Positions 1-47,172 of a stretch of 64,000 nucleotides of DNA are shown piece after piece. The DNA is taken from contig NC_135565.1 of the NCBI RefSeq assembly GCF_964340395.1, positions 4,174,142 to 4,238,141 on the forward strand. Reading direction: 5' to 3'. Below the pieces are notes generated by a model that searched no databases, had not been told where the DNA came from, and saw nothing but the letters and a program-made list of their open reading frames with translations. A program made the translations under genes and the position numbers. The stretch is from Glandiceps talaboti. Taxonomy: Eukaryota; Hemichordata; Enteropneusta; Spengelidae. Numbering within the stretch: the stretch's first letter is position 1; each line of letters opens with the position of its first letter.

Positions 1-1243
1 CTGCCCCATACTTCCAGTCCATAGATGATGTGTGGGAGAACAGTGGAATTATAAAGCATGATAAGTATATGTTGAGGCACAACTTTGCGAATATGTAGGA
101 ATATGCCTGTAAGTTTGCTTATTTTAGAATTTACAGCAGTTATTTGTGGCTTCCAGGACATACACTGATCAATTGACACTACAACAAATGATGCAGTATC
201 AGTTTCTTGCAGTATTGTATCTTTAAGGCGCATAGATCCAGTGCTATCCACTGTTTTCCCTTTGCTTTTCAGAATTAAGTAATTCGTTTTAGCTAGATTT
301 ATCGTTAGCTTATTCGCATCACACCAATTTGTGATATTTGTTAATTCATAGCTTATTGATGTCATATCAATAATATTACTTCTATCAGTAAAAGTATGGA
401 ATAAATTTGAATCATCGGCATACAATCTTAAGTCAAATAAATCGGAAGATAATGGTATATCATTAATATATACAAGAAAAAGTGTAGGTCCTAGAATTGA
501 GCCTTGGGGAACACCACAAGTAATTGCCCGTTTGGAGGAATTAACACCATTTATACCTACAAACTGATACCTGAAAGTGAGATAATCTTTTAACCATTGA
601 AGGGACAAACCTCGTATAACATAATATTCTAATTTCGATATTAGAATATCATGATTTATGGTATCAAACGCTTTCGAAAAATCAATGAATAACCCAAGTG
701 TTGGATTTCCCTTATCAATTTCTTCAAGAAGATGTTGGGTGAGGCTGATCAAAGACAGTTTGGTGCCATGTTGCTTCTGAAAACCATATTTGTGTTTGTA
801 AAATGTGTTGTTTTTCTCAAAGAAGTTTAGATTATTTTGATTATTAACCATTTTTTCCCCCAAAAAATGCTTAGTAAAGGCAAAATAGAAATTGGTCTAT
901 AATTTCCTGTGTTTTCTGTGTTTCCCTTTTAAAATATAGGGACAACCCGTGTATTTTTAGAGTATTTCGGAATTTACCTTTTATGAATGACAAATTCAAA
1001 ACGTGGCACAATGGTTTCGATATATGATCAGCTGAATCCCTTATGAGTTTTACACTAATATTGTCGTAACCGGTTGCCTTGGCAACATCTAGAGATAAGA
1101 GCATCGTTTTGACATCCTCTTCAGTTACAGGTTGTAGGAAAAAGGTATTCGAAGCATTACAACCGAGATATGACATATGATCAGGTATTGTTGAAAGTGA
1201 AGTGTTAATTTTCTCAGCAAGATTTGGTCCAATACTAACAAAA
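1..1243 (-). mobile_element. non-LTR retrotransposon (LINE) reverse transcriptase fragment, degraded
   Basis: Minus-strand reading gives the reverse-transcriptase core of a CR1/Jockey-group LINE in the usual order: a finger segment near 1176-905, a NYRPISIL motif near 895, FIDFSKAFDTINH near 700, GVPQGSILGP near 510 and the catalytic YADD near 425. The reading frame shifts at about 905 and again at about 855, so the copy is broken. It continues past the left edge and its 5' side ends in a (TACA)n tract at 1244. No endonuclease domain is seen here. Clade assignment is inferred from motif style only. Confidence 0.88.
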
Positions 1244-1341
1244 AACTACATACATACATACATACATACATACATACATACATACATACATACATACATA
1301 CATACATACATACATACTATACATACATACATACATACATA
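1244..1341. repeat. (CATA)n microsatellite
   Basis: About 98 bp of near-perfect tetranucleotide repeat with one interruption near 1317. It abuts the truncated side of the LINE fragment. Confidence 0.95.
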
Positions 1342-1587
1342 TGGTATATAAAGCATGGTATGGTTCTCAAGTATAAGTAACGCATGGTTGTTAAGTCTGT
1401 CCTGGCTTCACCATAATACCCAGAATTGGAGATATGGACCTAGCGTCCATATATCAATCCCGGGCATCAATATGCCGACCTTTGCGACTGACACCTCGCT
1501 TTAGGACGCTGTGTAGGGCGCCACCACGGGTAGGAGTGTGCATAAATCAGTTGTTTTGTTTTTATTAAAATACATTTTATTTCGTAG

Positions 1588-1823
1588 AAAGTACAGCTTA
1601 TGCAGCAGACCCCATCAACCTGATGAAAAGTGGACGCACACAAGAAGGTCAAGAGAGCTCCGATTACTACTACAGCAGTTTTCATTCCGGTCTGTTTAAG
1701 CTGAGAGAAACCGACAAAATCTACATGAAAGTGTTTCTTCCGAGCACAAATGTTGTTTTAGATAACCGACAAGAATCAACCTATATGGGGCTGTACATGG
1801 TTGATGAAGGCTATGATATGTGA
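1588..1823 (+). CDS. TNF-superfamily ligand, C-terminal exon
   Basis: The open frame ends at TGA 1821-1823. It contains the terminal beta strands of a TNF homology domain: HSGLFKL (1684-1704), DKIYMKV (1714-1734), then VVLD and STYMGLYMV before the stop. In this family these strands form the end of the jelly-roll that trimerises outside the cell and binds TNF receptors. The upstream part (ADPINLMKSG) fits the strand D-E region. The exon start is taken at the TAG acceptor 1585-1587 after a T-rich tract; CAG at 1594-1596 is an alternative. The transmembrane and stalk exons are not visible upstream, where a LINE and microsatellite sit. An orphan or pseudogenised terminal exon is possible. The subfamily cannot be told. 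Confidence 0.75.
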
Positions 1824-1908
1824 AGAGTTTATTGCGTGTTTATCATCAGTTCCGACTCTTCTTACTAATCAAGGAGTTTCCATTCTGTTTATCTTTATTC
1901 TTATTAGA

Positions 1909-1987
1909 TTCGGTTACCCAGACTATATCTGACTTCCGCCACACCCAGCAGAGAGGAGAACCCAGTGGCAGATTCTGGGTAACCGAA
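1909..1987. repeat. perfect 14-bp inverted repeat, hairpin in TNF 3' flank
   Basis: TTCGGTTACCCAGA at 1909-1922 is exactly complementary to TCTGGGTAACCGAA at 1974-1987, with a 51-bp loop. It lies about 86 bp after the TNF stop and so probably within its 3' UTR. It could be a structured RNA element or a tiny MITE. Confidence 0.7.
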
Positions 1988-2383
1988 ACTACCTTACTCG
2001 CCACCTTTGGAAAGGATAAGTAAATCTTCATCACATGACTGTAAATTGCTATTGCTATATTATTATCCAGTATCATATTGACAAATCAGATAGGTCATTT
2101 TATACCATGTACAGTGTATTATCCAGAGTTACAAAGCGAAGCTTGGCATGTACGATATAGTAATGAGTTGCCTCTCCCTCCTCCCATGTAACAACTCACC
2201 TTATTGGCCAATATGTTTCCCATTAGTAGAAGTCACATTAGTGATTAGCTAGTGGTGCTATAATATCCACAAAAATTTACTCGCAGTATAGTTTGTAGGG
2301 TATGGCGAGTAGGGCGCCCTCACACATCGCCCGGGCGTCCAACAAGGTGGTTGCATGTATTATATAGGGTTTAATAGATTGGA

Positions 2384-2389
2384 AATAAA
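2384..2389 (+). promoter_or_regulatory. candidate polyadenylation signal of the TNF-like gene
   Basis: AATAAA about 560 bp downstream of the TNF-like stop codon on the same strand. Assignment is by position only. Confidence 0.35.
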
Positions 2390-2566
2390 AGGAATAGAAC
2401 ATCCGGGATGTTTGATATAATACTTAATGATTGAGAAATTAGTACGTTTAATGTTTATATATATACGGAATGTTGTGTTATCAAAATCATTACACTATAT
2501 CTTATGTTCAATGACCTTCAGATTTGAACTTTTACCAAACCGTCCCATCATCACATTTAACGGTAC

Positions 2567-2602
2567 AAATGAATGAATGAATGAATGAATGAATGAATCA
2601 AT
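2567..2602. repeat. (AATG)n microsatellite
   Basis: About eight tandem AATG units passing into AATC units. Confidence 0.9.
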
Positions 2603-2907
2603 CAAACAATCATATATTGTCATGCAGTATTATCAACAGTACAACAGTGGAAACCGAACTTTCAGCTAATTAAGATAGAAACAAACTACAACTATTGTGT
2701 CCACATGTGTTAGTATTAAAGCGATCGAATGGAAGCAATATTTAGTTTAATTGTACTCACAGTAGGGTGGCGTTTCTGACGATTTCTATGATTGTGTAGG
2801 GTACATTTTGGGGCCTTTCTGTGTTTATTTCTACTATACAGTATATCGTGATTACAGGGTGATTATATCTACACAATGACGATACCCCTACTACCAACTA
2901 GCTTAAG

Positions 2908-2975
<68 letters not shown>
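2908..2975 (-). repeat. (GATT)n microsatellite, probable LINE/SINE 3' tail
   Basis: Pure AATC tetranucleotide on the plus strand. Read on the minus strand, it follows sequence ending in GGCATTTTATGAATTATTTT. That resembles the 3' end preceding the (GATT)n tail at 11873-11956, so it is probably a retroelement tail. Confidence 0.8.
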
Positions 2976-2978
<3 letters not shown>

Positions 2979-3249
2979 AATTCATAAAATGCCAGCAGAC
3001 TCCAGAACTGAAGTACTGTTTGGCACCAATAAGGGTTAGTTTGTGTCTATATCTTAGTACGCTGAAAGCCTAGTTGCCATAGTAATACCCATGGTTTTTT
3101 AAAGGCACACCATGGCATATTTGTGTACTCAAACTTTGAGTCGCGTTTTTATTACCGTTGTTATTTTTATACAAAATTTGTACAAATAAATATTCCTCAT
3201 TTTCACTGCTGATGGTGACTTCATTTTCTTTATTAACAATTGATTGACT

Positions 3250-3652
3250 TTTACAACTAGTAACACTGAAGTAAAGCACTTTCTTTATGTGGTACACTCG
3301 TTTACAGCATTCACATTAAGTGCAAAAGTATACTGTTTCAATTGGTTTATTTACAAGCCTAGCATGTGGCCTTCTCATGTGTTAAACTAACAAATGAAAC
3401 AGTATACTTTCACACTTGATATGGATGCTATAAACGATTGTAGTGCATACAGAAAATGCTTTACTTTGGTGTTATGGGTTGTATTAACAAATGAAACAGT
3501 ATACTTTCACACTTGATATGGATGCTATAAACGATTGTAGTGCATACAGAAAATGCTTTACTTTGGTGTTATGGGTTGTACTTGATATGGATGCTATAAA
3601 CAATTATAGTATACAAATACAGAAAACGCTTTACTTTGGTGTTATGGGTTGT
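3250..3652. repeat. foldback array: one inverted and three direct ~97-bp copies
   Basis: Direct copies start at 3388, 3485 (period 97) and, partially, 3581. Each contains the core GAAACAGTATACTTTC and ends GTTATGGGTTGTA. A diverged inverted copy occupies about 3250-3348. The unit therefore forms a large stem around a ~40-bp loop, as in foldback or MITE-type elements with repeated terminal arms. Confidence 0.8.
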
Positions 3653-3940
3653 AATGTGGTATCCTTGTAGAATATTTGGCCTGCCTGTCTACGTTGCTGA
3701 TCTGTAACTTCGATAACTCTCAGCTTGTTACAGAATTGTATATCAAGTGCCAGGATATTGTAATTTGAAAATATGGCCCTATACGCTGATTGGTCGATGA
3801 CAGTTACAATAGCTATTTGGGGTCACAGGTCAGACAGGCTAATATCTGGCTGATAATTATCAAGTGTTAGAGCAATTGTCAAACTTGCAAACAGTGATAA
3901 ACAAACACAGATACAGACACAAATCAAACTGTGTCAAACA

Positions 3941-3942
<2 letters not shown>

Positions 3943-3973
<31 letters not shown>
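3943..3973. repeat. (CA)n microsatellite
   Basis: About 15 CA dinucleotides. Confidence 0.95.
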
Positions 3974-3975
<2 letters not shown>

Positions 3976-4587
3976 CCCTCCGCCTCTCTCTCAGTTCAAA
4001 GTAATTGATCTAACATGAAATAAGCTGTCACTGTGTAGGAAAACAATGGCTCATGAATATCGCATAGCATTTATATACCATTGTAGGAATCAAACTAAAA
4101 CACTGGTCGATAGGTATAACTATAGGTTGTGACTTGAAAGACGTGACATTGAATGTGACAGAACTCTACAAATAGGGGGGTGTGTCCAAAAAACCTATTG
4201 GTCACCCTATATACAGGATTGCCCTATAGGATCCTATAGGGTTTTTGGAAGTGAATAAACACAAAGGAATTCAAAATGCATTTTAACATGAAGATTAGTT
4301 CATTGCCATTGAAATTAATTTTGAAGTCTTTCACAAGACATGATAGTAACTAATAGCTGCATGTCATAAATATGAAATATTTGTTAATCAAGTATAATAG
4401 TAGGGGTAATACCAACTAATGACACTACATATTATCATCTTTCATATATCCATTTAATATAAAATAACAATCAGCTGAAATTTTGTAACATTTCATGTCT
4501 TTATTATATATCTGTGTCTGTAGCTATGTTTTTGTGTTATAGTTCTTTTATATTGCATATTATATCCTTACCATATTACATAAAACT

Positions 4588-4722
4588 GTATGTATGTATG
4601 TATGTATGTATGTATGTATGTATGTATGTATGTATGCATGCGTGCGTGCGTGCGTGCGTGCGTGCGTATGTATGTATGTATGTATGTATGTGTGTATGTA
4701 TGTATGTCTGTATGTATGTATA
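4588..4722. repeat. (TATG)n/(TGCG)n compound microsatellite
   Basis: TATG units with a central block of TGCG units at about 4636-4667. The CpG-containing units are confined to the middle of the array. Confidence 0.95.
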
Positions 4723-4826
4723 ATGACTTCAAAACAGTAACATATCTCAGTATTATGTATTATATTTAATTTCTGCAAATAAAGTAAATATTATAACAGG
4801 ACCCTGTTGACATGCGAGTATAGGTG

Positions 4827-4940
4827 TGACTTACAGGAGTATTGAAATACCCAACATTCAGTCACTACTCTGGCATTCACTGGTATGACTTACAGGAGTA
4901 TTGAAACACCCAACATTCAGTCACTACTCTGACATTCATA
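4827..4940. repeat. 56-bp direct duplication
   Basis: Two near-identical copies of a segment reading TGACTTACAGGAGTATTGAA... starting about 4827 and 4883. Confidence 0.85.
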
Positions 4941-5051
4941 CCCCACGAGGTCCTGTTATTATTACATATTTTTATCTGAAACAAAAACATTTTGTAAAAA
5001 TGAAATTGTGAATTCAGGTGACTTCATGTACATCATAGATTGCTAAATAGC

Positions 5052-5125
5052 AAACATATATGCAATGACAGTTATTGGCAATTAACTGCAATACAAACAT
5101 ATATGCAATGACAGTTATTGGCAAC
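5052..5125. repeat. 45-bp direct duplication
   Basis: The segment ACATATATGCAATGACAG continuing through TTATTGGCAA occurs twice, 45 bp apart. Confidence 0.8.
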
Positions 5126-5126
5126 A

Positions 5127-5393
5127 CAAAACATCCCTTACATGGTGTCTGCTCTGTAGACACAATTAAGATAACACACAAACATCCCTTACACAGTGTC
5201 TGCTGTGTAGACACAATAAAGATAACACACAAACATCCCTTACAGTGTCTGCTGAGTTTTGTTAATGATAACGAGAACAAATACAAAAGTACAGAGCAGA
5301 CACTGTAAGGGATGTTTGTGTGTTATCTTTATTGTGTCTACAGAGCAGACACCATGTAAGGGATGTTTGAGTGTTATCTTTATTGTGTCTATC
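5127..5393. repeat. palindromic minisatellite (three direct, two inverted ~50-bp units)
   Basis: The unit ACATCCCTTACA...GTGTCTGCT...GTAGACACAAT occurs three times in plus orientation (5131-5256). It then occurs twice in inverse orientation (5297-5393) around a ~40-bp spacer. A transcript of either strand would fold into a long hairpin. Confidence 0.85.
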
Positions 5394-5708
5394 TCAACAT
5401 AACACTTTATGATCAGTCTCCCTGATCTTAATAGTTCATTTAATAGCATTTGAACTAGACTATACAGGTATATACAACCATTGCATAAGGTTTCTTGTAA
5501 ATATAAGTTTTATAATTACACATATCAAATATGACACATTCATTTTGTTATCATACAAAGTAGTATAAAATACTCACTTGCAAGTTTCCAGTATGAGAAA
5601 AAGTATGTCACTCAAAATAATATGTTTATCATTCTTACGGTTAAATTATCAAGCAAGAAGACCTACAAGAGAATGTCATCTGACAGAGAAGTAAAGGGGC
5701 ACAAGCTG

Positions 5709-18200: not shown

Positions 18201-21200
18201 CAGGAGAAGCAATAAATGCAAAGTGATCCAAAGATACAAATTCTTGAAAATTGACTTAATTATGGTTTTGATGGCAAGTAATTGGTATGATTTGCAAATG
18301 TCATTAAAAATGACTCTTTGCAGATAGTTTGACTTGACAAAATTGACAAAAAGGGTTTGATTGCGGCTGTAGTATGGGGGATACTCAGGTACATGAGTTA
18401 ATGGGAATCAGGTATGGGTTAATGTTGTAGGGTGGGGGAGGGGGTCAAACCAACACTTAGTTAATACTGTTACTGAAATAGGAACTGGTTTTATGTGCAA
18501 ATTTGAATATTACTCTGGTTTGTATAGGTTTGACTGACTCCAACTAAAACTATTAAGGCAACATGTTGACGTTAATCCATCAACAGACTTGATGTAGGGT
18601 GGCATATGTATGTCATTGTGTAAGCATATGTGTATGTCACTGTGTAAGCATATGTGTGTGTCACTGTGTAAGCATATGTGTGTGTCACTGTGTAAGCATA
18701 TGTGTGTGTCACTGTGTATATAAGCATATGTGTGTGTCACTGTGTAAGCATATGTGTGTGTCACTGTGTAAGCATATGTGTGTCACTGTGTAAGCATATG
18801 TGTGTCACTGTGTAAGTATATGTGTGTGTCACTGTGTAAGCATGTGTGTGTGTCACTAGCATGTGTGTCACTGTAAGCATATGTCACTGTGTAAGCATGT
18901 GTGTGTCACTGTGTAAGCATATATGTGTGTCACTGTGTAAGCATGTGTGTCACTGTGTAAGCATATATGTGTGTCACTGTGTAAGCATGTGTGTGTGTCA
19001 CTGTAGTGTGTGTCACTGTAAGCATGTGTCACTGTAAGCATGTGTGTCACTGTAAGCATGTGTGTGTGTCACTGTGTAAGCATATGTGTCACTGTAAGCA
19101 TATGTGTATGTCACTGTGTAAGCTAGCATATATGTGTGTTACTGTGTAAGCATGTGTCACTGTGTAAGCATATGTGTATGTCACTGTGTAAGTATATGTG
19201 TGTGTCACTGTGTAAGTATGTATGTCACTGTATAATCTACTCTTACCAGTTTAGCCAATTCTACTTCCTTTTCAATTTCCTGTCTCTGTAAGTCCCACTG
19301 TTGTTGAACCGTCAGACTTTCTTCTTGAACTGCATCAGTGGTCGCTTTCTTCTTCTCCTTCTCTAACTGTTCTTGCTGCAGACTTAAAGCCAACAGCTCC
19401 TGTGCAATGAGTTCTGATTCATCATCCAGATCGATAGATACCTGACTTGTTGTACTGTCAGGTCGTTTCTGTGGTTGTGCCATGAATAAATCTTTCCATT
19501 TTTCATCAGCTTTTCTTTTCTCTTCATCTTCTTTCTTTTTCTCATCCTCTGTTTTACTGGCAAATACTTTGGTCCTTTTAATGTGCATAGCTTTCTCTTC
19601 TTCTCTCTTTCTATCAGCTTCAGCCCTGAAAATATATCATATATTTTTTTTCCAATATTTTTTTGGTTGAAACAACTTTATCTTTTAGTCTACATTTCAA
19701 TAAGTTAAATATATTGTACATGCTACAGTGGAAACCGGGGTTTCTGCTTACTAAGATAAAAACAACTTTGTTGTCTAATATAGTTGAATAATTACATGAG
19801 TGGGAGATAGCTGTGCTTCAGTTGAGTGGATGTAATCACCCTGTAATCAAGATGGTGTAAATACTGGAATTCTTCAAAGTCCATACTGCAAAATTATTGA
19901 AGTCATCGAAAACATCACCCTACCGTGATTATTAAAAACATTAATGTCTGGGGTGCTACTTATTATTTTTGATAAATGTATCACATTAGAGAACGCTATT
20001 TATTTGATAAATGTATCACACTACAGGCTGCTATTGATTTGACATGTGTACAACACCAGAGGGTGCTATTTATTTGATAAATGTATCGGGAAGTGGAGCT
20101 GACATTTTTTAACGGAGCTGTTATAATGAATATATAAACCATTCTACCTATCCATATCCAGTCTCAGTTGTTTTTCTCTTTCTCTTCTCAGTGCCTCTTC
20201 TCGTAGGTTTTTCAACTCGGCTTGTTCAGATTCACGTTCTCTGTCTCTCTCTGCTCTCCTGAACCTGTTTGGTTTGGCATATATCTCAAAGTCTGCCTAA
20301 AAAATTATTACAGGAGAAATAAAGCTGGCTTGGTGTTTCACTCACGGCAAAGATAGACACAATTCAACTCTAGACTAACAATAACAGAGACACAACACAA
20401 CACACATTGAAAAGTGGTAAGCACTGCTATTTGTTTACAGTATAGTACAACTAGAAACAGGCTAGTGGTGAAAAATACACATTGATTTCATGATTTTAAT
20501 GACTTCAATTGTTTACACTTTAACTGATAATCAACAAGGTAACTTGTCTACTTCTACACCCCCAGCTGTGTGCGGCACATCATCTAAAATTGTTTCTTTT
20601 GCTGTCTATACGTTTAACAAACATTGTGTATTATTGTGTCTCTCGGATGAACACAGCAGTTAACATCAACATTATTAACATATATGCCAAAATTATGAAA
20701 ATTTGTTAATCAACAGGTTGATGATGCACATGCAGATAGTGAAGAAAAAATGAAATCACAGATCTAAAATATAGTCAAACTGTTGTTTTTTTAATTATGC
20801 CTATGGGGTAAAAATCCATTTTAAGTAAGATTGGCGCTAAGAGAGAAGAGACATGACAACATTGAGTCATGTATTTCTCATACGAATTGAGTTCAATGAT
20901 GGCATTATAGCCAGCAAACACACATTCAAGAATATGGCAATTTTATTTTATAAATGCAACAAGTATTTGTATTAATAACTTTTAGATTGTGCTACAAAAT
21001 AGCAGAATTAACATGAAGCAATATTGTATTGCATTGAATTTATTGTAGTTTTAGTATTGTATTTTGCAATGCATTGTAGTTTTAGTATGGTATTGTACAG
21101 TGTATTGTAGTTTTAGTATGGTATTGTACAGTGTATTGTAGTTTTAGTATGGTATTGTACAGTGTATTGTAGTTTTAGTATGGTATTGTACAGTGCATTG

Positions 21201-24200
21201 TAGTTTTAGTATGGTATTGTACAGTGTATTGTAGTTTTAGTATGTATTTTGCAATGCATTGTAGTTTTAGTATGGTATTGTACAATGCATTGTAGTTTTA
21301 GTATGGTATTGTACAGTGTATTGTAGTTTTAGTATGGTATTGTACAATGCATTGTAGTTTTAGTATGGTATTGTACAATGCATTGTAGTTTTAGTATGGT
21401 ATTGTACAGTGTATTGTAGTTTTAGTATGGTATTGTACAGTGTATTGTAGTTTTAGTATGGTATTGTACAATGCATTGTAGTTTTAGTATGGTATTGTAC
21501 AATGCATTGTAGTTTTAGTATGGTATTGTAAAGTGTATTGTAGTTTTAGTATGGTATTGTACAATGTATTGTAGTTTTAGTATGGTATTGTAAAGTGTAT
21601 TGTAGTTTTAGTATGGTATTGTACAATGTATTGTAGTTTTAGTATGGTATTGTACAGTGTATTGTAGTTTTAGTATGTATTGTACAGTGTATTGTAGTTT
21701 TAGTATGGTATTGTACAATGCATTGTAGTTTTAGTATGGTATTGTACAATGCATTGTAGTTTTAGTATGGTATTGTACAGTGTATTGTAGTTTTAGTATG
21801 GTATTGTACAGTGTATTGTAGTTTTAGTATGTATTGTACAGTGTATTGTAGTTTTAGTATGGTATTGTACAATGCATTGTAGTTTTAGTATGGTATTGTA
21901 CAATGCATTGTAGTTTTAGTATGGTATTGTACAGTGTATTGTAGTTTTAGTATGGTATTGTACAGTGCATTGTAGTTTTAGTATGGTATTGTACAGTGTA
22001 TTGTAGTTTTAGTATGTATTTTGCAATGCATTGTAGTTTTAGTATGGTGTTGTACAATGCATTGTAGTTTTAGTATGGTATTGTACAGTGTATTGTAGTT
22101 TTAGTATGGTATTGTACAATGCATTGTAGTTTTAGTATGGTATTGTACAATGCATTGTAGTTTTAGTATGGTATTGTACAGTGTATTGTAGTTTTAGTAT
22201 GGTATTGTACAGTGTATTGTAGTTTTAGTATGGTATTGTACAATGCATTGTAGTTTTAGTATGGTATTGTACAATGCATTGTAGTTTTAGTATGGTATTG
22301 TAAAGTGTATTGTAGTTTTAGTATGGTATTGTACAATGTATTGTAGTTTTAGTATGGTATTGTACAATGTATTGTAGTTTTAGTATGGTATTGTACAATG
22401 CATTGTAGTTTTAGTATGGTATTGTACAATGCATTGTAGTTTTAGTATGGTATTGTACAGTGTATTGTAGTTTTAGTATGGTATTGTACAATGCATTGTA
22501 GTTTTAGTATGGTATTGTACAATGCATTGTAGTTTTAGTATGGTATTGTACAGTGTATTGTAGTTTTAGTATGGTATTGTACAGTGTATTGTAGTTTTAG
22601 TATGGTATTGTACAATGCATTGTAGTTTTAGTATGGTATTGTACAGTGCATTGTAGTTTTAGTATGGTATTGTACAGTGTATTGTAGTTTTAGTATGGTA
22701 TTGTACAATGCATTGTAGTTTTAGTATGGTATTGTACAGTGTATTGTAGTTTTAGTATGGTATTGTACAGTGTATTGTAGTTTTAGTATGGTATTGTACA
22801 ATGCATTGTAGTTTTAGTATGGTATTGTACAGTGTATTGTAGTTTTAGTATGTATTGTACAATGCATTGTAGTTTTAGTATGGTATTGTACAGTGTATTG
22901 TAGTTTTAGTATGGTATTGTACAATGCATTGTAGTTTTAGTAAGGTATTGTACAATGCATTGTAGTTTTAGTATGGTATTGTACAGTGCATTGTAGTTTT
23001 AGTATGGTATTGTACAATGCATTGTAGTTTTAGTAAGGTATTGTACAGTGTATTGTAGTTTTAGTATGTATTGTACAGTGTATTGTAGTTTTAGTATGGT
23101 ATTGTACAGTGTATTGTAGTTTTAGTATGGTATTGTACAATGCATTGTAGTTTTAGTATGGTATTGTACAGTGTATTGTAGTTTTAGTATGGTATTGTAC
23201 AATGCATTGTAGTTTTAGTATGGTATTGTACAATACATTGTAGTTTTAGTAAGGTATTGTACAGTGTATTGTAGTTTTAGTATGTATTGTACAGTGTATT
23301 GTAGTTTTAGTATGGTATTGTACAGTGTATTGTAGTTTTAGTATGGTATTGTACAATGCATTGTAGTTTTAGTATGGTATTGTACAATGCATTGTAGTTT
23401 TAGTATGGTATTGTACAGTGTATTGTAGTTTTAGTATGGTATTGTACAATGCATTGTAGTTTTAGTATGGTATTGTACAGTGTATTGTAGTTTTAGTATG
23501 GTATTGTACAATGCATTGTAGTTTTAGTATGGTATTGTACAGTGTATTGTAGTTTTAGTATGGTATTGTACAATGCATTGTAGTTTTAGTATGGTATTGT
23601 ACAGTGTATTGTAGTTTTAGTATGGTATTGTACAGTGCATTGTAGTTTTAGTATGGTATTGTACAGTGCATTGTAGTTTTAGTATGGTATTGTACAATGC
23701 ATTGTAGTTTTAGTATGGTATTGTACAGTGCATTGTAGTTTTAGTATGGTATTGTACAATGCATTGTAGTTTTAGTATGGTATTGTACAGTGTATTGTAG
23801 TTTTAGTATGGTATTGTACAATGCATTGTAGTTTTAGTATGGTATTGTACAGTGCATTGTAGTTTTAGTATGGTATTGTACAGTGCATTGTAGTTTTAGT
23901 ATGGTATTGTACAGTGCATTGTAGTTTTAGTATGGTATTGTACAGTGTATTGTAGTTTTAGTATGGTATTGTACAGTGTATTGTAGTTTTAGTATGGTAC
24001 AATGTATTGTAGTTTAGTATTGTATTGTACATGACTTCACTGTATGAACAGGTGGCGTTTCCAGTACAGCCATGTATACGGAACCAGAAATGACACTTTT
24101 TATGTAGTGCTTTTGTATGGTAATGGGGAGTAAATACAGTGAGATTGTTATTAATCAAGGTAGATAAATCATATCTTACGAGTTGAGGAGAATTTCTTAA

Positions 24201-27200
24201 ATATGTGCTTTATATAAATTTATTGTATAAACTTACTGCTCCCTTCTTTAGAGTTATTGTCAGTTGTTTACTAGACTTCAACACAACAACTGCCTCAGCA
24301 TGGGTGATTCCTATAAAACTATTACCATTCACTTCAAGAATCTGGTCACCAGGCTGTAAACAAATATTTGAATAGTATCAATTTGGACAAAGAATGTACA
24401 CTATTTTAATAATTAGTTCTTGTATAAAGGATTCTAATTATTTATGAGTATTATTTTGTCTGTTCAGGTCGACATAACAAACTGTTCAATTGCTGGCTTT
24501 AACACTAGGTGACATAGTGGTAATGACGTGATCATACAGATGATGTAATTGGTATGCCCCCCTGTCTCTTTCCATGGTGTAGCCCCCTACATAGTGACTG
24601 TATACATATCACCACTTACCTTAATACCAATCTGTTCAGCCAATGAGTGTGGCATCACATACTGTATACATATCACCACTTACCTTAATACCAATCTGTT
24701 CAGCCAATGAGTGTGGCTTCACATACTGTATAAAGATTTCTGGTTGTCCTGGAGTACTAGCAATACTACAACCCAGTGTCATACCACCAACCAAGTTGAC
24801 ATACAGTTTACGAATGTTATCATCTTCACCATCTGCATTTTCAGCTTCATTGATCACATCCTCCTGAGAAAAAAAGGAAGATAATGTTATTAAGATTGAA
24901 GAATACTAACAAAATATACCTTACCTTAAAGGGCTATGTTTCAATCCTGGGTCACCACATTGATGTTATGTTAATTAGTTGCACCACAAGGATTACACAG
25001 GTTCAATGGTTATGTTCAGGATCAATTCGTTCTATAACTTTGTTTGACAACTGTTCTCCTCACCTAGTTCACTTTACATAATATTACCCTCGGTAATCGA
25101 GGCTTTGGTTTACCAAGATAGACACAAACTAAATTAATTGTCATGTCACCTAAGTGAAACACCAGGGTAACATGATTTGTATTCTACATAGATGTAGATA
25201 GATTACTGGTATTGGTTTCAAAGTTTAAGTCTCCAAGTTTAATTACTTCACTTAGTGTAGAGTAAAATACTTGAAGATTTTATGATCTACATGTATCTCA
25301 GTTGGATACTGACAAGAGGTCAATGCATATCACATCTAGCATAGAATGAAAATGTTTACATTGATATTGATAGATTACTAGAAATTGGTGTCCAATATTG
25401 TCACAACATGTGATGCAATAGGGACAGATGTTGTGAGTCAATGGATTTGACTGAATGAGTACAAGACAACTTTTTACAACCAGTTGTCTGCTTTCCTTGA
25501 CTAAGTCTTGCTTTCTTTTCAGATACATGCTCAACAATTTTGTGTTTGAATGAGTCCATGTAGATACATGCAAATAATAACTAATATGAAAGAAAACACA
25601 TGTTCAAAGTTGAATTACCTACATGTACTATCGTAGCAACCATATCATTCAAAAATACATGGGACTAGTACCAGTATTTCCAGACAAGGCAAGTACTAAG
25701 TGTGTGCACCCTGGTGTTTACTACTGATATTATCTCTAAGGCCTGGGATAAACGTTGAACTTCTCAAGTACTGAATCTAATTATTAGATTAGGTACATGA
25801 CAAATTCCACATGTATTGCAATTAGTTGCACCAATTAATATTAAATTCGACACAGACTGTTGAAAATAAGGACACAAGTGCGACGCGCAATAAGTATCAA
25901 ACTTTCACCATAACGAATCTAAAACAAAATAACCACAATTCAATGTGCTTGTCATGCACAATCTTGTCATTTTCAAACGTACTGGCAAAGTTCAACTCGT
26001 GTATCATTCTTGTGTTGAAATTAAGTTCATCTGTATTTCCAATGCTGAAGTAGCACACTTCAATGAAATTTCTGTCTTTCTTGATTGTGTATATCAACAG
26101 AATTCTCATCCAATCCGTATATGATTTTATCCCCTACGAAGTGTGTCATATTGTGTTTTTTGTAACTCAGTGTAATTTGGCCTTTTGGCCACAATGGCTG
26201 AGATTAATAAACCATTATTATTATAATTATTATTATTATCATTATATGCCACTAGACCCTCTAACCAGTTCGTTTTCATATTAAATTCAACATATTACAT
26301 TTGATGTCTATTCCGTGTCGTTTTTATTCTCTACTTGTGTCGACTTCATTACAATTAGATTAGGTACATGTGGTTTTTTAATGTTTATCACAGGCCTTAG
26401 AGTTAGTGTAACTTCAACAATGTCTGTCAGTGTTATGGCAAATGTAGAGACTATATAAGTTGGAAACCAATTCCAGTAATCTTACAATATATATGTACAC
26501 ATTGATCATTCTAGGCTCGATTGAATCAGCTGTAATGTTAATAAATACATACCAACATACTAGGAGCACTGCTCTGGACATACTTCCATGTCAGTGGATC
26601 ATTCTTTTTGTTCTTAATTGGTATCATGCCAACAGCTGTAATACAAATAGTGTAAGTATACATCAACTTGGTTAGATCAAATGATTTACATAGATAGAAT
26701 ATAACACACAAGGAGTTCAGCGTTTTAGTTGGGGGTTACACTTCATGACAAGTAGCATTTCTGGTTTTGTATACATGATAGTCAGACATGACAATGGAAA
26801 TGTGGCATTTCGGGATTTTTGCAATTCTGTTGTGTGACCGTCATGTATACGGAACTGGAAATGGCACCCTTTAATACAGTATTAGTTGGTTGGTTTGTTT
26901 GTTGCTTGGTTGTTGGGTTATTGTGTGATTGGTAGGTTAGTTGGATGGGTGGGTGGTTGGTTTGTTGGTATCAAGGAAATCAACAAGAGAAAGTCCACTT
27001 TCAAACCACGTGCAAACTTCTCTGTTCTGACTGCTTAGTTTACAAACTGTACTTACTCTTGACATTGAAGGTTACAAATCTCTTGGAGGGGATTAGTACT
27101 TACTATTGATTTTGAGGGTTACAAATCTCTTGGAGTGGATTACTGTACTTACTCTTGACTTTGAGTGTTACAAATCTCTTGGAGTGGATTAGTACTTACT

Positions 27201-30200
27201 ATTGATTTTGAGGGTTACAAATCTCTTGGAGTGGATTAGTACTTACTCTTAACTTTGAGGGTTACAAATCTCTTGGAGTGGATTAGTACTTACTCTTAAC
27301 TTTGAGGGTTACAAATCTCTTGGAGTGGATTAGTACTTACTCTTGATTTTGAGGGTTACAAATCTCTTGGAGTGGATTAGTACTTACTCTTAACTTTGAG
27401 TGTTACAAATCTCTTGGAGTGGATTAGTACTTACTATTGATTTTGAGTGTTACAAATCTCTTGGAGTGGATTAGTACTTACTCTTAACTTTGAGGATTAC
27501 AAATCTCTTGGAGTGGATTAGTACTTACTCTTAACTTTGAGGGTTACAAATCTCTTGGAGTGGATTAGTACTTACTCTTGATTTTGAGGGTTACAAATCT
27601 CTTGGAGTGGATTAGTACTTACTCTTAACTTTGAGGGTTACAAATCTCTTGGAGTGGATTAGTACTTACTCTTAACTTTGAGGGTTACAAATCTCTTGGA
27701 GTGGATTAGTACTTACTCTTGATTTTGAGGGTTACAAATCTCTTGGAGTGGATTAGTACTTACTCTTAACTTTGAGGGTTACAAATCTCTTGGAGTGGAT
27801 TAGTACTTACTCTTAACTTTGAGGGTTACAAATCTCTTGGAGTGGATTAGTACTTACTCTTGACTTTGAGGGTTACAAATCTCTTGGAGTAGATGAGAGA
27901 TAATACTTCGTCATGAGTTGCTTGAGAAATATTGAATCCATTGACCCGTACTACCTGGTCTCCTACCTGCATACATAACATATCAAAAAATGAGTTCCAA
28001 CGATCTTACAATGCTGGAATAAAAGTTTGGGGGACAGTATTCCACTTATAAATCAAAAGACAAAATGTGATTTCAGGGGTCCAGTGAACACTACATTGTG
28101 TACATTGCACTGTGATTACTGGGGTCCAGTGAACACTACATTGTGTACATTTCACTATGATTACTGGGGTCCAGTGAACACTACATTGTGTACATTTCAC
28201 TATGATTACTGGGGTCCAGTGAACACTACATTGTGTACATTGCACTGTAATTACTGGGGTCCAGTGAACACTACATTGTGTACATTTCACTGTGATTACT
28301 GGGGTCCAGTGAACACTACATTGTGTACATTTCACTGTAATTACTGGGGTCCAGTGAACACTACATTGTGTACATTTCACTGTGATTACTGGGGTTCAGT
28401 GAACACTACATTGTGTACATTTTACTGTGATTACAGGGGTCCAGTGAACACTACATTGTGTACATTTCACTGTAATTACTGGGGTCCAGTGAACACTACA
28501 TTGTGTACATTTTACTGTGATTACTGGGGTCCAGTGAACACTATATTGTGTACATTTCACTGTAATTACTGGGGTCCAGTGAACACTACATTGTGTACAT
28601 TTTACTGTGATTACTGGGGTCCAGTGAACACTACATTGTGTACATTTCACTGTGATTACTGGGGTCTAGTGAACACTACATTGTGTACATTTTACTGTGA
28701 TTCTTGCGTCCAGTGAACACTACATTGTGTACATTTTACTGTGATTACTGGGGTCCAGTGAACACTGTATCGTTAAACATTACCTTTAGTCCTTTGATGG
28801 ATGCTTGTGAATCAGGGATCACATCTGATACAAAAATGCCAACGCCATGTTCCACACCGCCACGAACACTGAATCCAAACGTGTCATTGCCCTGTTTGAC
28901 TAGACGTATTACGCGGATCTTTTCACTGGAAGATTTAAAATGTAAGCACTCTGTGAACACATGTACAGATAAAATAACTGTACCAGTTACATAGATTGAC
29001 TCGTACATCCACACTTATTTTCTACATACATAAAATAGTAATAGTGATGAGTTTCCAATAAAATTACAGCACTGTACACAGTTCTCTACCAAAATTATTG
29101 TATGGAAACCTATCATTTTATCAGATTTCCTTCCTCTGTTGAGTAGGTTTCTATACCTTGGCAAAATACTGGCTTTTATTACCAGGTATAAAAGTATGTA
29201 TGTAATACTATGACAGACGCTCCATGATGAGTGAGGGCAAGTGTGGTGTACTCTGGGTATTTGCACACAATATTTTGCACTTGCAGTGTTCTCTGTGTCT
29301 CATATTTTCATGAGCATAACAAGTAAAATTGTAGAGGAAAACACAAGCAATAGTGCAAATACCCACACTGGTACTCACACATAATCGGGTCCTGTTCTAT
29401 CATTATGTAAGTTTATCCGAAAAAGCAAATTTCCACGAAAATCATAATGTGCAATCACTCAATTTCATGTACATTGTACAAGGAACAATCATGCACTCAT
29501 TTGCATATATGTATGCAATTATGTTTTCACATATCTAGGCATTGAACTGCAGTGCAAATATCACTACTATGCATGTGTACTGTTGTAAATAATCACTGGT
29601 ACATAAATTGCATGTAATAAGTTGAGTGAACACAAAACTTTAAAACAAGTGATGACAATGACTTCAAGGCCAGGGTTTCAATCCCAGGTCCCACATTAGT
29701 GTTATCTGATCAGTGGAGACTAAAGGCCAGGGTTTCAATCCCAGGGTCTCACATTAGTGTTATCTGATCAGTGGAGACTTAAAGGCCATGGTTTCAATCC
29801 CAGGTTCTCACATTAATGTTATCTGATCAGTGGAGACTTAAAGGCCAGGGTTTCAATCCCAGGTTCCCACATTAGTGTTATCTGATCAGTGGAGACTTAA
29901 AGGCCAGGGTTTCAATCCCAGGGTCTCACATTAGTGTTATCTGATCAGTGGAGACTTAAAGGCCATGGTTTCAATCCCAGGTTCTCACATTAATGTTATC
30001 TGATCAGTGGAGACTTAAAGGCCATGGTTTCAATCCCAGGTTCTCACATTAATGTTATCTGATCAGTGGAGACTTAAAGGCCAGGGTTTCAATCCCAGGT
30101 TCCCACATTAGTGTTATCTGATCAGTAGAGACTTAAAGGCCAGGGTTTCAATCCCAGGGTCTCACATTAGTGTTATCTGATCAGTGGAGACTTAAAGGCC

Positions 30201-33200
30201 AGGGTTTCAATCCCAGGTCCCACATTAGTGTTATCTGATCAGTGGAGACTTATGGATTATATTGTATTATTGGATTATTGTAATGTTCTGGACCAAAGTT
30301 TTCTTTAGTTCTGCCAAACATCTGTTTTTAAAACCTTTTTTCTAGGTGGCCTTTAAAATTTGTGATATGCAGACAAAACTGTCCAATGTACTAGCTTACC
30401 TTGGTTGCTTAGGAACATATTTATCATAAGTCATTTGATGTTTCAGCGGTATCAATGGTCGGATTTCTTCATATAAGATCATTCTCTTAGGATCATTCAA
30501 GACAGCCTTTAAGTTTCTGACCAAGTCTTCAACTGACATGTTCCTGTGGGTCAAAAGTGAAAAAATAAATATTATTTAACATAACCTTTAAAGGAGCACA
30601 AACTTCAGATAACTGTAGATACTAGTCATAGACCACATATATAGTTACTAGTTAATGTAGATACTAGTTATAGACCACATATGTAGATACTAGTTAATGT
30701 AGATACTAGTTATAGACCACATATGTAGATAGTAGTTATAGATGACATATGTAGATACTAGTTATAGACCACATATATAGGTATTAGTTATAGACCACAT
30801 ATGTAGATACTAGTTATAGACCACATAGTAGATACTAGTTATAGACCACATATGTAGATACTAGTTATAGACCACATATGTAGATACTAGTTATAGACCA
30901 CATATGTAGATACTAGTTATAGACCACATATGTAGATACTAGTTATAGACCACATATGTAGATACTAGTTAATGTAGATACTAGTTATAGACCACACATG
31001 TAGATACTAGTTATAGACCACATAGTAGATACCAGTTATAGACCACATATGTAGATACTAGTTATAGACCACATATATAGGTATTAGTTATAGACCACAT
31101 ATGTAGATACTAGTTATAGACCACATATGTAGATACTAGTTATAGACCACATATATAGGTATTAGTTATAGACCACATATGTAGATACTAGTTAATGTAG
31201 ATACTAGTTATAGACCACATATATAGATACTAGTTATAGACCACATATATAGATAATAGTTATAGACCACATATATAGATATTAGTTATAGACCACATAT
31301 GTAGATACTAGTTATAGACCACATATATAGGTATTAGTTATAGACCACATATGTAGATACTAGTTATAGACCACATATATAGGTATTAGTTATAGACCAC
31401 ATATGTAGATACTAGTTATAGACCACATATGTAGATATTAGTTATAGACCACATATGTAGATACTAGTTATAGACCACATATGTAGATACTAGTTATAGA
31501 CCACATATATAGATACTAGTTATAGACCACATAGTAGATACTAGTTATAGACCACATATGTAGATACTAGTTATAGACCACATATATAGTTACTAGTTAA
31601 TGTAGATACTAGTTATAGACCACATATATAGTTACTAGTTAATGTAGATACTAGTTATAGACCACATATATAGTTACTAGTTAATGTAGATACTAGTTAT
31701 AGACCACATATATAGGTATTAGTTAATGTAGATACTAGTTATAGACCACATATGTAGATACTAGTTATAGACCACATATATAGTTACTAGTTAATGTAGA
31801 TACTAGTTATAGACCACATATGTAGATACTAGTCATAGACCACATATATAGTTACTAGTTAATGTAGATACTAGTTATAGACCACATATATAGTTACTAG
31901 TTAATGTAGATACTAGTTATAGACCACATATATAGTTACTAGTTAATGTAGATACTAGTTATAGACCACATATATAGTTACTAGTTAATGTAGATACTAG
32001 TTATAGACCACATATATAGTTACTAGTTAACGTAGATACTAGTTATAGACCACATATATAGTTACTAGTTAATGTAGATACTAGTTATAGACCACATATA
32101 TAGTTACTAGTTAATGTAGATACTAGTCATAGACCACATATGTAGATACTAGTTAACGTAGATACTAGTTATAGACCACATATATAGTTACTAGTTAATG
32201 TAGATACTAGTTATAGACCACATATATAGATACTAGTTATAGACCACATATATAGATACTAGTTATAGACCACATAGTAGATACTAGTTATAGACCACAT
32301 AGTAGATACTAGTTATAGATGACATATGTAGATACTAGTTATAGACCACATATATAGATACTAGTTATAGATGACATATGTAGGTATTAGTTATAGACCA
32401 CATATGTACATGTAGATACTAGTTATAGACCACATATATAGGTATTAGTTATAGACCACATATGTAGATACTAGTTATAGACCACATATATAGATACTAG
32501 TTATAGATGACATATGTAGATACTAGTTATAGACCACATATGTAGATACTAGTTATAGACCACATATATAGGTATTAGTTATAGACCACATATGTAGATA
32601 CTAGTTATAGACCATATGTAGATACTAAGTATAGACCACATATGTAGATACTAGTTATAGACCACATATGTAGATACTAGTTAAAGACCACATATGTAGA
32701 TACTAGTTATAGACCACATATGTAGATACTAGTTATAGACCACATATGTAGATACTAAGTATAGACCACATATGTAGATACTAGTTATAGACCACATATA
32801 TAGGTATTAGTTATAGACCACATATGTAGATACTAGTTATAGACCACATATGTAGATACTAGTTATAGACCACATATATAGGTATTAGTTATAGACCACA
32901 TATGTAGATACTAGTTATAGACCACATATGTAGATACTAAGTATAGACCACATATGTAGATACTAGTTATAGACCACATATGTAGATACTAGTTATAGAC
33001 CACATATGTAGATACTAGTTATAGACCACATATGTAGATACTAGTTATAGACCACATATGTAGATACTAGTTAAAGACCACATATGTAGATACTAGTTAT
33101 AGACCACATATGTAGATACTAGTTATAGACCACATATATAGATACTAGTTATAGACCACATAGTAGATACTAGTTATAGACCACATATATAGGTATTAGT

Positions 33201-36200
33201 TATAGACCACATATATAGATACTAGTCATAGACCACATATGTAGATACTAGTTAACGTAGATACTAGTTATAGACCACATATGTATATACTAGTTATAGA
33301 TGACATATGTAGATACTAGTTATAGACCACATATATAGGTATTAGTTATAGACCACATATGTAGATACTAGTTATAGACCACATAGTAGATACTAGTTAT
33401 AGACCACATATATAGGTATTAGTTATAGACCACATATGTAGATACTAGTTATAGACCACATAGTAGATACTAGTTATAGACCACATATAGAAAGCCTTAG
33501 GTCTGTTGGCTTGCTGTCTATATCTTGCATAAAATGGAGATACTTAAAAAGTAGGGTGTGATTTTCATCATTATAAAATGAGTACACAAAATGTACTGGT
33601 AGATTTGACAGCCTTGTCATCAGGATGAACACTTAACAATTGTTTATACTCACTGTTTATAACTACGGAGTGCCTGATAAAGAATATCTCTTTCATCCTC
33701 ATCTTCAATCAACATCTGAACCTACAAGACATAACAATGGTTTGAATAACATATAATAAGTAATAGGTTTCAAAATAAACAAAAATAACCACTGAAGATG
33801 ATACATGTAAAATGAGACTTGGTCCTCTAAATATGTGTTAAGCCAACAGTGGGAAGTGTTTGTGGTATATTTCCAATCATTTTTATTGATTTCACAATAG
33901 GTTGATTTATTGTCAACCAACCAACCAACCAACCAACCAACCAACCCACCCAACCACCCACCCACCCACCCACCCACCCACCCACCCAACCAACCAACCA
34001 ACCAACCAACCAACCAACCAACCAACCAACCAACCAACTAACCAACCAACCAACCAATCAGTGAATTTATAAAGCACCAGTTTCCACTACCATGTAGAGT
34101 TAAGAGGCACTGTACAAATGGAATGTGCTGGAGAATAGACAATTTTAATTTTTTTATGTCTCAAAGTTATTTGCATTTATTGGTTTTGTCATAAATCCAA
34201 TGGTAGTCCGTAGTGCATTCCATATACGGGATACAGCTTGTGAGAATGCATGCCCACCATAATATGACAATAGTTTGTACTTGGGTTCATGCAATAAACA
34301 TTTGGCAGATGATTGAAGTGTCCTGGGAGTTGGCTTCATGTGAATTAGGTCAGATATGTAGGTTGGTGATATGTCAATTCACAGATTTGTAAGTAATCAA
34401 TAAAAGCTTGTTCTGGTGGATTTCATTGATTGGTTGACATCAAGTCGTGGCAGTGTTAAAATCTGATAAGAATGTGAACCTGTCACCAAGCTGCATATCC
34501 ATCATCATCAGGTCAGAGTTCAAAGTTCAGGTACTAACTCATCACTTAGATACATGTCTAGTTGTAACTATTGACTGCGATAAATATGTCATACAATTTG
34601 ACATGTCTTACCAACAGTAAAATACACAGTTTATGAACTGGAACACAAATCGAATATGGCACTGTTTTCTCAACTAGTAGTTGGTATGTTTTACGAAATC
34701 GGAATGATGCACCAAAACTATAAAGAGACTATAGGTTATTAGTTGCAATTCCAGCGAATCAAATTACATGTGTTCATATACATGTACAATGTAGGTAGGT
34801 AGAATCTCAAGTGAAAAATCAATAGTTAACCCAACTGTATATAGTTATTTTACAATTACATGTATGCATGGAGCCTTGTTACTACACATTGCAGGGGTCA
34901 AATTAACAGTAGCTCAGGACACATATTGCCATAGATTACTAGTATTAACGTGGTAACTAGACTACCAAATTAACAGTATGGACGTTCAGGACACATAGAC
35001 TACTAAACATAGTATCTAGACTACCAAATTAGCAGTAGTCCAGGACACATAGACTACTAAACATAGTATCTAGACTACCAAATTAGCAGTAGTCCAGGAC
35101 AGACTACTAGACACTACACAGCGTGATAAATATTAACCATACTAAGTAGTCCCTACCTTGTCCTGCAGTACTCGTATATTCTTATTAACAACAGGAAAAC
35201 TGTACATAATGTCAGCCATGATTCAATGGTGTCATTTATCCACACGGAATAGTAAAATAATATGAACACAAAATGTGGTTGTTGGATCACAAATGGATGC
35301 CTAAATCAGGTCTCTTAGTTTCTCTGTCAGACTATCCTTTTATTGGACGATTCCATTATCACTAGGGGCAGACTGATAACTCTAGATATCTGATTTCAAT
35401 ATTTTCTGTACTTTCAACTCAGATTAGAAATGTTGTCAAACTTCTTGCAGCATAACTTTCCTAAAAAAACAACTCTGCAATCTATTCACTTTTCATTTCA
35501 TAAAACATTAAGTTATGAATTTCCAATTTTATTGATTTACTGCTAAATAAAGAGCCCTTGGATCCTATACAATAATTGACTAGTCGATAAAAGTTGTTGA
35601 TTAACTCAGTTGTAGATAACAATAATGATTCCAAAGTCTGCAAATTCATTGAAAGACTGCCCTCAATAGGTAAAAAGTGTAGATTCTTTCTTCTTTCTAG
35701 CCAATCTTAACAGGTGGTTCTGATTATCGAGTGAATGTACTGTAACATCTGTATATCACTTCACTAAGATTCTGAAATTATCAAATTCCTGATAAAATTA
35801 TAGAATACAACTCAGGGACCAATTTCCTTTATATTCAAAGATCTTGAAATTTCTCCAAATCGTGCCGCATCTAGGATTCTAAAATGGTTTAATTTTGATA
35901 TTATTTGGACCTCTATTTCAGAAATCTGGGTGTTGATTCCTGTTTGTCCTTTCTTTCACAAGGGTTTGAGTTTGATGAACACAGTAATAGCAAGACCTTA
36001 AAACCACAAGAGTAGTACAGGACACAAAATGGTCATCAACTTTTGGTTTAGGTTCTGTTTTTGTAGTTTATATGCTCTAGAATAAAGCCAACAACATGCA
36101 TATAAAAGTTTTTTGTTTTTTATAAATTTGCAATCACTAGGCATTCAAAAACAGTTAATACAAACAAATCTTATATTTCATGGTGAACGAAAAACAGGGT

Positions 36201-45384: not shown

Positions 45385-47172
45385 GTATATACCTGTACCC
45401 ATTCCCTAGCCAAGTACCCCCACACCTATTACCCAGCCAAGTATCCCCATACCTTTACCCACCCAAGTACCCCCATACCTTTACCCACCCAAGTGCCCCC
45501 ATACCTTTACCCACCCAAGTACCCCCATACCTATTACCCACCCAAGTACCCCCACACCTATTACCCACCCTGACCCAAGTACCCCATACCTATTACCCAG
45601 CCAAGTACCCCCATACCTATTACCCACCCAAGTACCCCCACACCTATTACCCACCCTGACCCAAGTACCCCATACCTATTACCCAGCCAAGTACCCCCAC
45701 ACCTATTACCCAGCCAAGTACCCCCACACCTATTACCCAGCCAAGTACTCCCATACCTTTACCCAGCCAAGTACCCCATACCTATTACCCAGCCAAGTAC
45801 CCCCATACCTATTACCCAGCCAAGTACCCCATACATATTACCCACCCTGACCCAAGTACCCCATATCTATTACAAAGCCAAGTACCCCTACCTATTACCC
45901 AGCCAAGGACCCCATACCTATTACCCAGCCAAGTACCCCCATACCTATTACCCACCCAAGTACCCCATACCTATTACCCAGCCAAGGACCCCATACCTAT
46001 TACCCAGCCAAGGACCCCATACCTATTACCCAGCCAAGTACCCCCATACCTATTACCCACCCAAGTACCCCCATACCTATTACCCACCCAAGTACCCCCA
46101 CACCTATTACCCAGCCAAGAACCCCTACCTATTACCCAGCCAAGTACCCCACACCTATTACCCAGCCAAGTACCCCATACCTATTACCCAGCCAAGGACC
46201 CCATACCTATTACCCAGCCAAGTACCCCCATACCTATTACCCACCCAAGTACCCCCATACCTATTACCCACCCAAGTACCCCACACCTATTACCCACCCA
46301 AGTACCCCCATACCTTTACCCACCCAAGTACCCCCATACCTATTACCCAGCCAAGTACCCCCATACCTATTACCCAGCCAAGTACCCCCATACCTATTAC
46401 CCAGCCAAATACCTCCATACCTTTACCCACCCAAGTACTCCCTACCTATTACCCAGCCAAGTACCCCCATACCTATTACCCAGCCAAGTACCCCCATACC
46501 TATTACCTAGCCAAGTACCCCATACCTATTACCCAGCCAAGTACCCCCATACCTATTACCCAGCCAAGTACCCCCATACCTATTACCCAGCCAAGTACCC
46601 CATACCTATTACCCAGCCAAGTACCCCCATACCTATTACCCAGCCAAGTACCCATACATGTACCTATTACCCACCCAAGTACCCCCATACCTTTACCCAC
46701 CCAAGTACCCCCATACCTATTACCCAGCCAAGTACCCCCATACCTATTACCCAGCCAAGTACCCCCATACCTATTACCCAGCCAAATACCCCCATACCTT
46801 TACCCACCCAAGTACTCCCTACCTATTACCCAGCCAAGTACCCCCATACCTATTACCCAGCCAAGTACCCCCATACCTATTACCTAGCCAAGTACCCCAT
46901 ACCTATTACCCAGCCAAGTACCCCCATACCTATTACCCAGCCAAGTACCCCCATACCTATTACCCAGCCAAGTACCCCATACCTATTACCCAGCCAAGTA
47001 CCCCCATACCTATTACCCAGCCAAGTACCCATACATGTACCTATTACCCACCCAAGTACCCCCATACCTATTACCCACCCAAGTACCCCACACACCTATT
47101 ACCCAGCCAAGAACCCCTACCTATTACCCAGCCAAGTACCCCCATACCTTTATCCAGCCAAGTACCCCACCC
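45385..47172. repeat. 27-bp satellite array, ~65 copies, with 377-bp higher-order duplication
   Basis: Unit CCAAGTACCCCCATACCTAT-TACCCAG with CACC/CAGC, TTTA and shortened variants. A block from about 46299-46675 is repeated at 46676-47052: rare variants (ACCTCCATACC, TACTCCCTACC, TTACCTAGCC, CATACATGTACC) recur exactly 377 bp apart. Long Pro/Tyr frames in it are artefacts. Confidence 0.96.

Follow-up and report, generated by a model that had tools for sequence, protein, structure and literature searches.

Minisatellite-like duplications of exon-intron boundaries have been described in amphioxus, where they were termed mirages and gave rise to a model of intron gain (PMC3087553; the sources identified here by PMC number are cited for the portions of their text that were available). 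In that source, Adh3 data and reverse-transcription polymerase chain reaction on globins suggest undisturbed splicing; a second source adds mirages in PGBD5 and troponin C, and there too amphioxus mirages are reported to leave regular splicing undisturbed (PMC3902484). Here, a structure of this kind is analyzed in a hemichordate: an 18-unit tandem array with a period of 47 bp, located at one donor (5' splice site) of the harmonin gene (USH1C), within a stretch of 64,000 nucleotides of the Glandiceps talaboti genome (contig NC_135565.1, positions 4,174,142 to 4,238,141). This whole stretch is referred to as the window, and positions of features in it are counted from its first letter.

Like the amphioxus mirages of Adh3, the globins BflGb6 and BflGb9, PGBD5 and troponin C, as far as the available text describes them, the array is a minisatellite-like repeat lying across an exon-intron boundary, with splice signals in its units, edge units outside homogenization and several affected genes in one genome. 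The repeat unit spans the boundary (39 nt exonic and 8 nt intronic, unit 1 being in the exon), the window gene is affected twice, along with two other PDZ regions (L028 and L039), and the homogenized core leaves out the edge units, as 5 of the 6 single-unit variants are found in units 1 and 18. The array is a mirage, a known kind of structure, and a case in a hemichordate. It is unlike the amphioxus examples in having 18 units of 47 bp at the harmonin donor of a hemichordate genome. Among the titles listed from the open-access literature, none concerns hemichordate mirages.

The minisatellite of human IFI6 (6-16, G1P3) has a unit of approximately 12 bp, and several of its donors are used. The harmonin array resembles it, judging IFI6 by the title of its description, in presenting several donors at one exon end, but 39 nt of the harmonin unit are coding sequence, and alternative use of its donors would truncate the protein. 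The models of Rogers and of Gao and Lynch, in which an AG/GT segment is duplicated, involve the same initial duplication across a splice signal, as related in the available text of PMC3087553; unlike in those models, the copies stay inside the old intron and no new intron is seen.

A tandem repeat is also known in the human ortholog: intron 5 of USH1C contains a 45-bp variable number tandem repeat (VNTR; PMC1895989, PMC3013073), and exon 5 contains p.R155X and has its donor at c.496+1 (PMC1895989). Alignment places the array-bearing intron at the position of human intron 5, in phase 1 and after the residue matching the last K of KVK. Hence the two repeats, compared by description only, have a similar unit length and the same intron position, and this likeness is most likely a coincidence.

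Structure of the array and reading frames

The minus-strand gene in the window, whose GC content is 0.355, is harmonin-like. Its PDZ1 region matches Harmonin 5f3x with an E-value of 3.9e-30, and its PDZ2 region, read via the first donor, matches Harmonin 2kbs with an E-value of 2.3e-21; for both regions, harmonin chains rank first among solved PDZ domains. These matches bear out the identification of the gene as harmonin in a previous interpretation made from the letters of the window (the sequence-only reading). No close protein relatives were found at an E-value of 0.001.

The exon of interest (27858..27966, minus strand, 109 nt) is the equivalent of human exon 5; according to its frame and to the Harmonin 5f3x match, it encodes the second half of PDZ1 and ends in phase 1. 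Its own donor, GTAAGTAC (27850..27857, minus strand), is hereafter donor 1. The next exon (26553..26635, minus strand), delimited by sequence and frame, has the acceptor TTTGTATTACAG and is preceded by an intron of 1222 nt.

Tandem Repeats Finder (TRF) yielded a period of 47, 18.0 copies and 94% matches at 27049-27894, and the unit alignment extends the 18-unit array over 27049..27896 (minus strand), with unit 16 measuring 49 bp. Unit 1 overlaps the exon, being the terminal part of 27858-27966 plus the donor, and thus the original exon unit stands at the 5' edge of the array. The motif GTAAGTA is present on the minus strand in 18/18 units, at a spacing of 47 bp with a single interval of 49. 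TRF and the unit alignment therefore confirm the 18-copy array of 47-bp units made of exon end and donor that had been described, and every unit does retain GTAAGTA. The exonic part, previously given as 32 nt, is longer: the similarity of unit 2 to the exon reaches back approximately 39 nt (TCATCTACTCCAAG... against TAATCCACTCCAAG...), and the 7 nt gained over the earlier 32 include 2 differences. Therefore, the unit is composed of 39 nt of exon end and 8 nt of intron start.

A branch-point-like TACTAAT had also been attributed to each unit. It is present in 16/18 units, with units 16 and 18 carrying GTAAGTACAGT instead, and it is a product of the unit joint. Given that it forms where the intron sequence ...GTAAGTAC meets the exon-derived TAATCC..., the idea that TACTAAT is an independent branch-point element was rejected. 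Searching the 590-Mb assembly returned at least 17 matches, and all those listed fall within the exon and the array; as the counts of this search are lower bounds, further loci are possible.

Each of the 18 donors was joined in silico to the next exon, whose first base is 26635. Donor 1 alone leaves the frame open into that exon and is the sole donor preserving the harmonin frame. Donors 2 to 18 (27049..27810, minus strand, with GT from 27810 to 27056) would each, if used, add SKY and a stop: all 17 of the 17 joined frames read ...KVKSKY-stop. This agrees with the earlier prediction that only the first donor yields harmonin, and any other donor would be expected to truncate the protein after PDZ1.

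Variation among units and origin of the array

Among units 2-18, 8 of the 47 columns are variable, and none of these is among the 8 donor columns. Since this has P = 0.196 under random placement, the donor columns are invariant at chance level, the intact donors are no evidence of selection, and selection on the donors is unsupported. Variants private to a single unit occupy 6 columns of the unit alignment, and in 5 of these columns the unit concerned is one of the two at the edges (1 or 18). By eye, units 2-10 follow a pattern of A-A-B blocks. Such blocks, together with private variants in the edge units, are what unequal exchange with sheltered edges would leave. Running counter to sheltered edges, units 10 and 18 are equally distant from unit 1 (42/47).

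We infer that a short tandem duplication captured the final 39 nt of the exon together with the 8 nt that open the intron, and that the array then grew to 18 units through unequal exchange, leaving the original exon unit in place on the 5' side. Most likely, the spliceosome picks the exon-proximal donor and so completes the 109-nt exon. The other 17 copies would remain in the intron as decoys of little effect, causing at most a few truncated transcripts prone to nonsense-mediated decay (NMD). A near-neutral decoy mirage array of which the first donor is used is, in our judgment, highly probable.

Exon-end duplications elsewhere in the gene and in other PDZ genes

A second tandem duplication of an exon end and its donor was found in the same gene by TRF and alignment (24602..24729, minus strand). 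It consists of 2 units of 64 bp, each with 46 nt of exon and 18 nt of intron, which are identical at 63/64 positions and have TATACAGT at both breakpoints, as a duplication at microhomology would leave. According to the frame, its second donor would likewise be truncating if used. This pair is younger-looking than the 47-bp array.

A further array in the gene, of 15.6 units of 45 bp (28066..28766, minus strand, TRF), begins approximately 17 nt past the donor that ends the preceding PDZ1 exon and has its GT at 28783. The array has no recognized exonic portion, and donor 28783 has no tandem copy, the best match being 17/30. Its unit length is that of the human USH1C VNTR, and it sits in a different intron.

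The survey of other genes covered the assembly of 590,416,875 bp in 47 contigs. At least 76 PDZ matches were obtained among those listed, with 150 of 162 candidates scored, and 75 are outside the window gene. Regions were taken around the best 40 of these 75, skipping one match inside a region already taken. Arrays of exon end and donor are present in 2 of the 40 regions. In L028, 4.8 units of 49 bp repeat the exon end KIQRDPNVGLG with GTAAGTT, and the PDZ domain is completed by the next exon; in L039, 3.9 units of 39 bp repeat the exon end LLINREDR with GTAGGG, which is retained in 3 copies. The case, which had been taken as singular, thus has further examples in the same gene, in L028 and in L039, and belongs to the kind known as mirages.

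Local copies were found in 0/40 regions within the 80 nt leading up to the domain, in 2/40 (L039 and L066) within the 80 nt past the domain end, and in 0/621 windows placed within the 40 PDZ domain matches themselves. The L066 array has a short period, lies after the donor and is not exon-derived.

Comparison of donors with random points

The chance rate of tandem copies was estimated by drawing non-simple points at random from 18 stretches, each of 10 kb, a copy being defined as a 25/30 match within 200 nt downstream. After 20000 draws, from which 1113 low-complexity points and a remainder containing N were skipped, 2333 of 18370 points (12.7%) had a near copy downstream. The corresponding figure for curated donors is 3/32, or 2/31 when the donor of the 47-bp array is excluded. 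The 32 donors comprise 8 from the window gene and 24 from the 40 PDZ regions, of which 16 were dropped for having no clear donor. Tandem repeats with a period of at least 10 make up 16% of the 180-kb sample. Given that tandem copies are no rarer at random points than at donors, chance capture suffices to account for the arrays; within the limits of this small sample, donors are not hit in excess of the remaining non-coding positions. The array has the appearance of a side effect of the abundance of short tandem repeats in this genome.

Several points weigh against this result. The donors compared are few and were curated by hand. The L039 donor (GTAGGG) failed the motif filter and was noticed through its array, and without L039 the count is 1/30, while the L028 array is at the preceding exon and hence outside the 32 donors. 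The random rate is very uneven: when copies on either side are considered it is 0.14 overall, ranges from 0 to 0.71 among stretches, and reaches 0.38 (725/1923) in the harmonin gene span. Because of this unevenness, the data are compatible with copies being enriched or depleted at donors by a factor of two to three. In addition, triples of AGGTAAGT at a spacing of 30 to 60 bp gave 3097 matches in the assembly versus 1054 in a reversed control, an approximately threefold excess that could mean an enrichment of donor-bearing arrays; these counts are of overlapping matches dominated by long arrays.

A genome-wide array count from such pattern matches was abandoned, as the approximately 100 listed places stem from only 5 arrays. 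By eye, a canonical exon with acceptor, 46-codon frame and donor forms the 5' edge of one of the five (L073); L071 and L074 possibly have an edge exon, and L070 and L072 have none.

Two long arrays are recorded here in their own right. L074, on contig C1 from approximately 5046364 to at least 5049162, is a donor-bearing array of 27-bp units exceeding 2.7 kb, and its 5' edge is perhaps an exon, given the frame NVSLAQRMSERIYELIFNE after a TTTTAG acceptor. L011 contains at 1-5634 a 38-bp array of approximately 149 copies, and its consensus unit holds the donor-like AGTAAGTA.

Alternative explanations

The sequence-only reading had proposed that copy number may tune harmonin output: use of a downstream donor, set by the number of copies, would lead to SKY-stop and to a truncated product or one removed by NMD. 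Intact donors in 18/18 units and an identical truncation from 17/17 alternative donors are what such a regulatory array would present. However, donor conservation is not above chance, and splicing is reported as undisturbed in published mirages, within the available text of PMC3087553 and PMC3902484. Comparable arrays are also found at the donors of other genes, where they are no commoner than chance capture would predict. The tuning proposal is therefore unsupported, and we consider a regulatory array improbable. More improbable still is that the array serves as raw material for intron or exon gain, in which, along the lines suggested for the amphioxus globins, an intronic copy would be recruited as a new exon, the present array being a passive stage of that path. 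A model of this type has been published for mirages (PMC3087553, available text), and each unit contains an AG (CACTCCAAG) that is in principle a potential acceptor. Yet 47 is not divisible by 3, and, by eye, a polypyrimidine tract is absent upstream of the AG in CACTCCAAG.

The array might instead have been collapsed or expanded during assembly. Some artificial tandem structure in this assembly is hinted at by a contig (C40) with COX1 in triplicate, but the harmonin array spans just some 850 bp and its variants are ordered. Three further cases exist in the genome, and the amphioxus mirages offer precedents (PMC3087553, available text). An artefact is accordingly given the lowest credence of all, and a near-neutral mirage spliced from its first donor is the reading retained.

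Other features of the gene and of the assembly

The first half of PDZ2 is encoded by an exon at 24684..24863 (minus strand), with the donor GT at 24683, and the second half by an exon at 24237..24353 (minus strand), both assigned from the Harmonin 2kbs match. An exon at 30400..30543 (minus strand), delimited by sequence and by the donor GT at 30399, belongs to the N-terminal (HHD) region and probably resembles the harmonin N-terminus. Very long minisatellites are located in or near the gene at 21042-24031 (97 units of 31 bp), 30697-33488 (26 or 52 bp, 2.8 kb) and 45396-47168 (66 units of 27 bp). At 34154-34378 (minus strand), a frame judged by eye only is like the end of a reverse transcriptase open reading frame of the long interspersed nuclear element type.

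On contig C40, the three COX1 copies are spaced at 15,435 bp, and the contig is probably the mitochondrial genome assembled as tandem copies. COX1 has 15 TGA codons and lacks AGA, AGG and AAA (AAA in 0/513 codons), and the GC content is 0.53 over the locus. AAA is also absent from the COX2-ATP frame, and the only AAA of the ND2 frame precedes an upstream in-frame stop. In the two best solved relatives, M, I or V occupies the positions of the 4 COX1 ATA codons, which is compatible with ATA meaning either Ile or Met. ARAGORN yielded the order -Asn, a tRNA with a tca anticodon read as +Trp, -Ala, -Tyr, COX1 and -Ser(tga), flanked by ND2-like and COX2-like frames. Hemichordate mitochondria are GC-rich and avoid AAA, and amphioxus mitochondria are AT-rich. 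The tRNA order around COX1 is presumably compatible with both hemichordates and amphioxus. The GFP family gave no hit in this assembly, and since it gave none in 14 control genomes either, this negative carries no weight.

Significance

With 17 near-exact copies of its end and donor behind it, the harmonin exon offers a clean test, set up by nature, of how a first donor prevails over identical rivals. Moreover, as arrays of differing copy number exist in one genome, RNA could measure donor choice against the number and distance of competitors without any engineering. Somewhat doubtfully, one may go further and propose that donor arrays are common in this genome, that its spliceosome follows a robust exon-proximal rule, and that the arrays form a natural donor-competition library with copy numbers from 2 to 18, perhaps far more. 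The mirage phenomenon, described in amphioxus, would extend to a second deuterostome group, and this suggests mirages are a by-product of high minisatellite load.

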